From: Microcaldota archaeon
GTDB lineage: Archaea; Micrarchaeota; Micrarchaeia; Micrarchaeales; Micrarchaeaceae
Direction of reading: 5' to 3'
Assembly (NCBI GenBank): GCA_021797495.1
Contig: JAJZZO010000007.1
Span: 1-51,379 of the forward strand
Length of the DNA stretch: 51,379 nucleotides
Shown here: positions 1 through 2,150 of the stretch, piece by piece
Layout: every line of letters begins with the position of its first letter
How positions within the stretch are numbered: position 1 is the first letter of the stretch
Position numbers and translations under genes: made by a program
The notes under the pieces: model-generated
What the model saw: the letters and a program-made list of their open reading frames with translations, nothing else
Told to the model about the DNA's origin: nothing
The model's database searches: none

Positions 1-195
1 CAGGGAAGTGCAAGTTTGGACAGTATAAAAAGAGGTTTGGAAAGAAATGTCAAAGGAATAGAGGTAAAAGCATCTGTCATAACCGATGTGGTTGTAGGGA
101 GATTCTGTTACAGGGTGTTTGACAATATGTATTCAAGACAAGCATTAGCATTAGAACATAAAGGGATAAAACTAGGTAAAAAGATAGAATATTGA
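1..195 (+). CDS. 3' end of a small unknown protein (left paralogue)
   Basis: An open frame enters from the left edge and stops at TGA 193-195, giving at least 64 residues. Its first 41 or so codons are almost identical to those of the gene at 374-664 (one synonymous change), after which the two proteins differ but keep an LEH...IK pattern. I do not recognise the family. The visible part is a soluble mix of alternating hydrophobic and charged residues with one cysteine. It converges on the tiny gene at 211-240, with only 15 bases between the two stops. Confidence 0.6.
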   Translation, partial: QGSASLDSIKRGLERNVKGIEVKASVITDVVVGRFCYRVFDNMYSRQALALEHKGIKLGKKIEY

Positions 196-210
196 AACGA
201 TTTTATATAT

Positions 211-240
211 TTAGTCTCCGCTTGATCCTGGGCCTCCCAT
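211..240 (-). CDS. Tiny gene, 9 codons, copy 1
   Basis: On the minus strand an ATG (240-238) follows GGTGAAAATT, a strong Shine-Dalgarno of the kind used by other genes here (compare GGTGATAAT before the gene at 41208). The frame reads MGGPGSSGD and stops at TAA (213-211). A TATA-like box, TATTTAAA on the minus strand, lies at 288-295, about 26 bases before the expected transcript start near 265. A T-run follows near 172-185. The frame, the ribosome site and the promoter are all conserved in copy 2. The product could be a micropeptide, or the conserved block could be part of a small RNA; translation is inferred. Confidence 0.5.
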   Translation of the reverse strand: MGGPGSSGD

Positions 241-285
241 AATTTTCACCTGATTTTTATATTTCAAAGCAAAATGGAATAGAAG

Positions 286-297
286 TGTTTAAATACA
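286..297. promoter_or_regulatory. TATA box between module units (copy 1)
   Basis: TTTAAATA at 288-295 is nearly symmetric and can serve both strands: the tiny gene to the left (expected start near 265) and the gene to the right (expected start near 317). The same box in the form CTTAAATA recurs at 805-812 beside copy 2. Confidence 0.55.
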
Positions 298-373
298 TTT
301 CTTCAATTTTCTTTGTATTTGTGTAAATGCGGCCAGTATTGATGAAAAATTCATAAACACAAGGGATAACCTG

Positions 374-664
374 ATGTATAACATCATAGAAGACGGAGAA
401 CTTGTAAACAAGTATTCATTTTTAGGGGATTTGCAGGCACCTCATGCGGGATTATTTATAGCTACGGTGCAGGGAAGTGCAAGTTTGGACAGTATAAAAA
501 GAGGTTTGGAAAGAAATGTCAAAGGAATAGAGGTAAAAGCATCTGTCATAACAGATGTGGTTGTAGGGAGATTCTGTTACAGGGTGTTTGACAATACGTA
601 CTCGAGTCAGGCTTATTCCTTAGAGCACAGGCACATTAAAACGTGGAAGAGAATTGATTACTAA
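374..664 (+). CDS. Small unknown protein, paralogue of the gene at the left edge
   Basis: Ninety-six residues from ATG 374. The middle section is almost identical to the gene cut by the left edge. The frame stays open upstream to 293 without an ATG, GTG or TTG, and that stretch (including SIDEKFINTRDNL) looks protein-like. An ATGCGG at 327 lies one base out of frame with it, and the same ATGCGG occurs at 835 after the second copy. The original start may therefore have been 327, with a frameshift since. No signal peptide or membrane segment is visible and no family is recognised. The gene converges on the tiny gene at 728-760. Confidence 0.5.
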   Translation: MYNIIEDGELVNKYSFLGDLQAPHAGLFIATVQGSASLDSIKRGLERNVKGIEVKASVITDVVVGRFCYRVFDNTYSSQAYSLEHRHIKTWKRIDY

Positions 665-727
665 AAATCATTACTAAGAAATGTAATAACTAGATAAAAA
701 GAATTAGCAAAAATATAATTTAAAGTA

Positions 728-760
728 TTAATCTCCTCCGCTTGATCCTGGGCCTCCCAT
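728..760 (-). CDS. Tiny gene, 10 codons, copy 2
   Basis: This is the second copy of the tiny frame. ATG 760-758 is preceded by GGTGAAAATT, reads MGGPGSSGGD and stops at TAA (730-728). It differs from copy 1 by one extra Gly codon and a synonymous GAC/GAT change, an in-frame change that fits selection on a peptide. Its TATA box on the minus strand is TATTTAAG at 805-812. T-rich stretches that could end the transcript lie at about 690-716. It lies downstream of the pcn-mscS-editing operon on the same strand but has its own promoter. Confidence 0.5.
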   Translation of the reverse strand: MGGPGSSGGD

Positions 761-802
761 AATTTTCACCCTAATTATACTTCAATCAGAATGCAACCGA
801 AG

Positions 803-814
803 CGCTTAAATACT
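803..814 (-). promoter_or_regulatory. TATA box of tiny gene copy 2
   Basis: CTTAAATA on the plus strand at 805-812 reads TATTTAAG on the minus strand. It lies about 48 bases before the tiny gene's ATG, which puts the expected transcript start near 782, about 12 bases before the GGTG ribosome site. Confidence 0.55.
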
Positions 815-858
815 TTTTTGCCTTGCCTTGTATAATGCGGTAAAGGGCTGGCCTTTGC

Positions 859-1269
859 TTATACGCTTCTTGATATCCTTGAGAGCTTATGCCCCTTTAC
901 CTTGAGCTCGAGCTCGTAGAATAAGCCGAAAGAGAGCTTCTTTACCGTGAAATTGTGGTCCGCAAGCGATTTTTGCAGCATCGTGAGCATTATCATAGAT
1001 TCCTGCGGTGCGGCGTTTTCAGCGAAAAGATGCGCGAACGGGTTGAGCACTATCGTGCCTGCACCCAGTTGCGCTGCAATCTTCTGTATCTCTAAAGATG
1101 CGCGGTCCACGGTATCCTGCTTTGTCTGTTCGTCCTTTTTCTCGAAGTTTGCAAATACCAATAGGGATTCGCCGGCTTCGACCGGCTCTCCATGCTCTAT
1201 TATGCTCGACCTTCCAGCGTCTTTTGGGAGGGCCTTTATGTAATCTACATGCCAGCACATGAATCGCAT
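859..1269 (-). CDS. Stand-alone threonyl-tRNA editing domain
   Basis: The 136-residue protein matches the archaeal ThrRS N-terminal editing domain (tRNA-Thr_ED, related to D-aminoacyl-tRNA deacylases). It starts MRFMCWHVDYI, has a central LVFANFEKKD strand region, then NPFAHLF and the ending GHKLSRISR, all typical of that family. The domain hydrolyses Ser-tRNA(Thr). No synthetase catalytic part follows, so this is a free editing factor and must act on tRNA charged by an enzyme encoded elsewhere. Free editing domains are known in some Crenarchaeota that split ThrRS into two proteins. It starts two bases after the mscS stop, as the last gene of a pcn-mscS operon. Confidence 0.85.
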   Translation of the reverse strand: MRFMCWHVDYIKALPKDAGRSSIIEHGEPVEAGESLLVFANFEKKDEQTKQDTVDRASLEIQKIAAQLGAGTIVLNPFAHLFAENAAPQESMIMLTMLQKSLADHNFTVKKLSFGLFYELELKVKGHKLSRISRSV

Positions 1270-1271
1270 AG

Positions 1272-2150
1272 TTACACCGGTTTTGTCGCAAACACCGCTG
1301 CCAACGATGTTTCCCTTATGAATTTTTCCGTTTCCTGCAGATGCTGCAGCTTCACGTCAGCGCATATGTCAAGACCGTAAAAAGTACTGTTCACATCGGT
1401 AATTTGTATGGAAAACGCGCCTATCTGCTTGCGTATTGGGGCTGGGGCACTTTTAAGGGATTTTTCCATCCTTGACTTAAAGTCGTCGAAACTTTTAGCT
1501 ACCGGAAGTTCGACGCGCTGCCTTATCTGCATGGTCTCGCTCCTCTCGTAGTTTATGATGGCCGCCTGTATCAATATTCCGTTAGGCACATATGTCCTGA
1601 CGTTGTCAGTCCCGATCAACGAGGAATAGACAAGCCCTACCTTTTCTATCTTTCCTTCAAAACCAGGGACCAGATGTCCGTGCGGCCATGTCGAGGCTAT
1701 GTTGCTGTACTGCCATGTTGTTATCTTTACCCTGTCCCCTATCTTGAATGGCCTGGCAGCCATTATCTCAAACCCCGCAAGTATGTTGCCAAGGGTGTTT
1801 TGCGCCGCTAGGCCAAGTACTATTCCAAGGAAACCCGCACCAACAAGAATTCCGGTGACATTGATTTTCAATTCATAGAGTACGGTTATGATAACTATGG
1901 CATATGCAAGTACTCTGAATAAATCCGCCAGCGCTGAGCCCTCTCCCTTAAAAGCCTTGCTCCCGGCAAGGACCAGGCCCCTTGCGACTATTTCTATCAC
2001 TATTATGCTGAAAATCAGGGTAAACGCTATGTTTATGTAGAATACATAAGAATTAGGAATGAACTTGTAAGCAATAAGCGCATGCACTAGGACTGCGCCG
2101 AAAATAAGTATTATTATGCCCGCAAGCAAGTTCCTCTTGAATTTATTCAA
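1272..2150 (-). CDS. mscS: MscS-family small-conductance mechanosensitive channel
   Basis: This 292-residue membrane protein has two N-terminal hydrophobic helices (about 8-28 and 34-55). A third, Gly/Ala-rich pore helix (about 92-125, containing GILVGAGFLGIVLGLAAQ) leads into the beta domain (PFKIGDRVKI). This order is diagnostic of MscS channels, which release solutes on osmotic downshock. The start is TTG 2150, nine bases after the pcn stop, with GTG as a weak ribosome site. It is likely co-transcribed with PCNA and the editing domain. Confidence 0.9.
   Translation of the reverse strand: MNKFKRNLLAGIIILIFGAVLVHALIAYKFIPNSYVFYINIAFTLIFSIIVIEIVARGLVLAGSKAFKGEGSALADLFRVLAYAIVIITVLYELKINVTGILVGAGFLGIVLGLAAQNTLGNILAGFEIMAARPFKIGDRVKITTWQYSNIASTWPHGHLVPGFEGKIEKVGLVYSSLIGTDNVRTYVPNGILIQAAIINYERSETMQIRQRVELPVAKSFDDFKSRMEKSLKSAPAPIRKQIGAFSIQITDVNSTFYGLDICADVKLQHLQETEKFIRETSLAAVFATKPV

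Follow-up and report, generated by a model that had tools for sequence, protein, structure and literature searches.

Glycine-rich micropeptide genes convergent with Lrp/AsnC-derived regulators in Micrarchaeota: a candidate family of peptide–regulator pairs

Among the described systems closest to the locus reported here is the LCP/SIP system of Firmicutes, in which an ORF of about 24 bp encodes a mature peptide of 8–10 aa, without a leader, beside the receptor RopB, and in which the canonical Opp import is not used (PMC10518010). The RRNPP systems, for their part, have TPRs as a required signature and usually a Sec-secreted propeptide of 10–100 aa (PMC10075063). A third term of comparison is the Lrp/AsnC family (PH1519, structures 1ri7 and 2e1c; LrpA; LysM), whose members are single-module proteins of about 150 aa with an AsnC-type HTH followed by a RAM domain. 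In known Lrp proteins the latter domain binds small effectors, normally sensing intracellular amino acids; and we know of no partner peptide gene described for proteins of that family.

The window—by which we mean the entire stretch of 51,379 nucleotides analyzed, corresponding to contig C15 in an archaeal genome of 0.96 Mb and 20 contigs—contains two members of a family of tiny genes, each facing the 3' end of a regulator of Lrp/AsnC descent or of a C-terminal piece duplicated from it. With LCP/RopB these loci share an ultrasmall, leaderless ORF beside a transcription regulator and, putatively, a distinct code for each receptor; whereas the LCP peptides are hydrophobic, their receptors TPR proteins (RRNPPA), their genes usually divergent, and their hosts Firmicutes, the peptides here are polar and glycine-rich, the putative receptors Lrp/AsnC-derived, the genes convergent and often tandem or polycistronic, and the hosts archaea. 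The likeness to the RRNPP systems (Rap, Rgg-SHP, NprR, PlcR, PrgX, AimR) lies in a peptide gene directly adjoining a regulator in the size range of 250–500 aa, in the many paralogous pairs per genome, and in duplication with what would be a diversification of specificity; but both the TPRs and the Sec propeptide are absent, the Pfam matches that were listed, for 50 members of the regulator family, comprising Lrp/AsnC and HTH models and no TPR family, and no leader being possible in polar peptides mostly 5–12 aa long. From the Lrp/AsnC proteins, finally, the regulator differs in being three times longer, the additions being an N-terminal domain, another HTH and a C-terminal domain of a new kind.

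A preliminary description of this DNA, made from its letters alone, had reported two minus-strand frames each with a GGTGA ribosome site, a TATA box and a following T-run, which account our reading of the sequence bears out. The first gene, ATGGGAGGCCCAGGATCAAGCGGAGACTAA, encodes MGGPGSSGD at 211–240 (ATG end at 240) and has a homologue in a related genome (G005, locus L039); its ribosome-binding site lies at 246–250, and its conserved promoter block at 238–296, with the box TATTTAAA at 295–288. The second, ATGGGAGGCCCAGGATCAAGCGGAGGAGATTAA, encodes MGGPGSSGGD at 728–760 (ATG end at 760), with the ribosome-binding site at 766–770 and the promoter block at 758–813, in which the box TATTTAAG occupies 812–805. 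Both boxes have the form TATTTAA(A/G), and in both copies the gap from GGTGA to the ATG is 5 bases; T-runs follow at 182–178 and 713–709, respectively. A block of 34 bases, GGTGAAAATTATGGGAGGCCCAGGATCAAGCGGA, is exact in the two copies (217–250 and 737–770), such a repeat occurring in 0 of 100 shuffles, and the frames differ, as had been claimed, by one in-frame glycine codon and a synonymous GAC/GAT change.

What the two genes face is, in contrast, not the small protein gene of the preliminary description, whose convergent placement nonetheless stands, but the C-terminal fragment of a regulator of 445–507 aa, present in full on another contig, C4, of this genome. The first fragment, on the plus strand at 1–195, comprises the last 64 codons, its translation matching the C-terminus of the C4 regulator without a difference; the second, on the same strand at 341–664 (longest ATG-initiated ORF, 374–664), has 86% amino-acid identity to it, with a dN/dS of 0.08/0.47. 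Since positions 1–107 of C4 (locus L041) and 1–107 of the window form an exact end overlap of 107 bases, the window copies probably represent the second and third units of a single array of three, within which the assembly probably broke at the ends of the two contigs. If that overlap indeed marks one continuous array, its order would probably be the full regulator, MGGPGAGGD, a fragment, MGGPGSSGD, a fragment, and MGGPGSSGGD.

The regulator consists of an N-terminal domain of some 95 aa, an Lrp/AsnC HTH and RAM that form one module at about residues 100–220, a second HTH, and a C-terminal domain that gave no Pfam match when the window fragment was searched. Its profile matched PH1519 in the PDB (1ri7/2cyy) with an E of 1.5e-15, 22 of 50 members matched AsnC_trans_reg in Pfam, and the two HTHs are related to each other (hhalign P 83%, E 9e-6). 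An AlphaFold model of a relative's regulator, built on only two sequences, reached a pLDDT of 45 and was not taken into a fold search. Five of the eight genomes of the genus contain duplicated C-terminal fragments next to additional peptides, and the well-diverged among these fragments have dN/dS values of about 0.07–0.2 against their parents, the dS being near saturation in several; such fragments would be either still translated or silent cassettes matched to the parent by gene conversion. Loci of this kind include L174, L175, L182, L193, L196 and L197. Several regulators (L083, L115, L116, L095, L098 and others) have one stop, inside the matched stretch or at its end, which counts against a ligand role of the peptides; some of these regulators may be pseudogenes with an intact peptide gene.

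The genome of the window has nine micropeptide genes. Besides the two of the window, it encodes MGGPGAGGD (C4), MGGPRGGG (C7), MGGGGQ (C18), MGNAGH (C10), and, on C13, three in a row (MGGGSGA, MGGSSGA and MDGGHGG), and every copy or fragment of the regulator family in that genome has at least one convergent micropeptide gene at its 3' end. The regulator family was matched in 105 of 119 relatives and, in a phylum-wide sample, in 143 of 295 genomes, all but 7 of these in the same order; the 7 others lie elsewhere in the class and are much weaker (best E 3e-39 versus about 1e-180). No relatives were found in the viral contigs, phages and plasmids searched, so that there is no sign of carriage by mobile elements.

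We assessed the association in the 350-nt 3' flanks of 93 de-duplicated regulators from two families of one order of Micrarchaeota. Under fixed rules, a convergent tiny ORF was present at the 3' end of 68 of the 93, against 4/93 in the sense 3' flank and 4/82 and 3/82 in the 5' flanks. A stricter rule demanding GGTG and two glycines gave 51 of 97 loci (three of which are duplicates), versus 0/97, 2/89 and 0/89 in the control positions and 0.6% in shuffles. Most of the flanks failing the fixed rules hold, as judged by eye, a tiny ORF whose ribosome site is weaker or whose glycines are fewer, examples being MNGGPGGANGGG, MDPGKSGD, MKAAGRCAP and MDGAY. A family of tiny genes tied to the 3' end of the regulator thus exists, the gene being convergent and usually 30–130 nt from the regulator stop, and the peptides running mostly as M-G-G-x... 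and being mostly glycine-rich. Their endings differ among paralogues (GD, GQ, GC, GT, HP, CAP, AY), as would be expected if the peptides were specificity codes. A possible orphan, MMGGYDDHP, was observed at L071 1508–1537 (G000:C11), with GGTGA and a TATA-like box, a different promoter block, and no regulator nearby.

Within the genus the family has a dedicated promoter. The model R1, built from the promoters alone of 22 training sequences and ending at the start codon, matched the first window copy, which is in that training set, with an E of 5e-18 and the second, which is outside it, with 4e-9. In the eight genomes of the genus the model gave 32 matches at E<1e-7, nearly all at a micropeptide gene and all but two adjoining a regulator or a fragment thereof. 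Those two are L199 (G001:C1:359114-359173), where an orphan MTGEDSY has the family promoter with no regulator within 1.5 kb, and a match in G005:C6, where seemingly just a remnant of the regulator end remains, as judged by eye. Another genome of the genus, G006, has three regulator matches without a strong R1 match. A palindrome between the TATA box and the start, suggestive of an operator by eye, proved no better than shuffles (z=0.09), and the operator idea was therefore dropped.

Several lines of evidence bear on whether the frames are translated. In 78 distinct ORFs, gathered without any glycine requirement, GGN made up 52% of the in-frame codons against 1.7% and 4.4% in the other two frames, and all four glycine codons (GGA, GGC, GGT, GGG) were used. 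Of 29 R1 matches examined, 27 lead into an ORF of 14 codons or fewer, where 44% would be expected (p=3e-8), which probability is optimistic because the training loci had been picked for a short ORF; most of the training sequences are among these matches, but the sequence past the start codon is outside the model. Frameshifts or stops in relatives with otherwise conserved DNA, the outcome that the preliminary description had named as speaking against a translated peptide with its own promoter and ribosome site, were thus looked for directly, and the two exceptions are both compatible with coding: L180 (G007:C80:572-627) starts at GTG and keeps the frame (GTGGGAGGCAGCGGCGATCAATAA, MGGSGDQ), while L187 (G001:C1:747684-747742) is a fused repeat of 25 codons, MKGGTNGGKIIGGPHSGIVGGPHGG, resembling a multi-peptide precursor. 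At L131 one promoter precedes five cistrons of 9 codons, all of them preceded by a separate ribosome site; at L098 and L159 the tandem cistrons number at least five, and arrays of 5–6 occur at some loci, usually with separate ribosome sites. Related copies differ in length by whole codons (the window pair, L143/L148, L088/L090), and the homologue in G005 encodes the identical MGGPGSSGD with a GGC-to-GGT change and a TGA stop in place of TAA. The nearest paralogous peptides had no excess of synonymous changes (27% versus 26% expected), so that we claim no purifying selection on the exact peptide sequence: frame and composition are kept, and the exact residues diversify. Translation of the micropeptide genes, as far as comparative data can speak to it, is strongly supported.

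With respect to function, the distance between peptides, which diversify among both paralogues and species, correlates with the distance between their regulators. In a partial Mantel analysis with all the domains competing (78 loci), RAM gave an r of 0.27 (p 0.001); this signal is modest, and shared ancestry cannot be wholly taken out by a single permutation test. The value was 0.25 (p 0.002) upon dropping regulators more than 60% identical and retaining only automatically called peptides, and weaker, at 0.17 (p 0.03), with peptides of at least 3 glycines only; the other four regulator domains had a weak signal or none, also after the 60% identity filter. This RAM-specific co-divergence, together with the effector role of RAM, makes it the best-supported reading that the peptide beside each regulator acts as its effector. 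A short peptide would be made without a leader, probably losing its Met, and would bind the RAM ligand-binding domain so as to alter the binding of the regulator to DNA, distinct peptides giving distinct receptor–peptide specificities. That the loci are pairs of a regulator and a cognate leaderless peptide ligand, following a logic like that of LCP/RopB though unrelated to it, with binding and secretion both putative, we regard as evenly balanced between true and false. The reading of the preliminary description, a translated glycine-rich micropeptide with a promoter and ribosome site of its own and possibly a signal, is supported, and we lean toward a specificity-coded signal.

A bolder version would be peptide signalling between archaeal cells, in which the tiny-genomed Micrarchaeota possessed dozens of receptor–pheromone codes, each made up of an Lrp-derived receptor and a leaderless, glycine-rich peptide of 5–12 residues, and in which cassettes of a receptor C-terminus plus a peptide duplicated and diversified; this proposal we put forward tentatively, as having perhaps one chance in three. 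The oligopeptide importers SBP_bac_5, OPT and PTR2 are absent from all eight genomes of the genus, so a pheromone would need another, non-standard import route, for which the LCP/RopB system, itself independent of Opp, offers a precedent. That absence, along with the lack of an export signal in peptides of 5–12 aa, also counts in favor of the first rival, in which the peptide stays in the cell as a co-effector reporting translation capacity (glycyl-tRNA, peptidase activity), and the amino-acid sensing of Lrp, homologous here and intracellular in the known RAM domains, would have evolved in that direction. The glycine content of about 52% fits such a gauge as well; but a gauge of translation would need glycine alone, and the strong variation among paralogues and its tracking of RAM are left unexplained, so that we consider this explanation doubtful, if somewhat short of improbable.

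A second rival holds that the transcript acts and not the peptide, as a convergent antisense or dual-function RNA upon the regulator mRNA through a 3' overlap. The strict convergent placement at so short a distance from the regulator stop would suit such a role, as would the position of the window T-runs in or near the 3' ends of the fragments; yet the in-frame glycine bias, the retention of start and stop, the GTG-start variant and the tandem cistrons with separate ribosome sites all argue against it, no Rfam covariance model matched window positions 1–1500 up to E=5, and the single-strand folds of both copies are ordinary (z +0.7 and -1.7), which makes the RNA explanation improbable. Slightly more improbable still is a secreted or modified effector (bacteriocin- or RiPP-like) or a toxin–antitoxin pair with the regulator as control or immunity protein: the peptides are indeed small, diversified, tandemly amplified and beside a regulator, but they are polar and not membrane-active—in composition unlike the hydrophobic membrane peptides of type I toxin–antitoxin systems—and at the loci inspected no maturase or transporter gene lies beside them, the neighbours there, named from sequence by eye, being PCNA, MscS-like, FtsZ-like and FEN1-like genes. 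The toxin, antitoxin and small-RNA alternatives that had been raised beforehand found no specific support, and the partner is a regulator. Nor is the arrangement that of a leader-peptide attenuator, in which the short ORF precedes a regulated gene of the same orientation: reading on from these ORFs, one first comes to the convergent regulator. A repeat or promoter element that is conserved as DNA and has a short frame by chance, to which the window by itself might lend itself as simply a recent tandem duplication, is scarcely credible, being refuted—short of direct protein data—by the relatives with their 3' association, glycine frame bias, tandem cistrons and 27 intact frames in 29.

No description of such a peptide–regulator system was found in the open-access literature; we therefore regard the family and its architecture as new, and the proposed mode of action as resembling that of receptor–peptide pairs already described. 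Genes so short escape standard annotation, so that a whole layer of paired peptide–regulator loci in DPANN archaea has apparently gone unnoticed. Should the peptides prove to be ligands, there would be peptide signalling on an Lrp fold in archaea, and how the host-dependent Micrarchaeota sense kin or hosts would become testable. Even with an action confined to the cell, polycistrons whose 9-codon genes have a ribosome site apiece and co-diverge with a ligand-binding domain would still be a new kind of gene arrangement.
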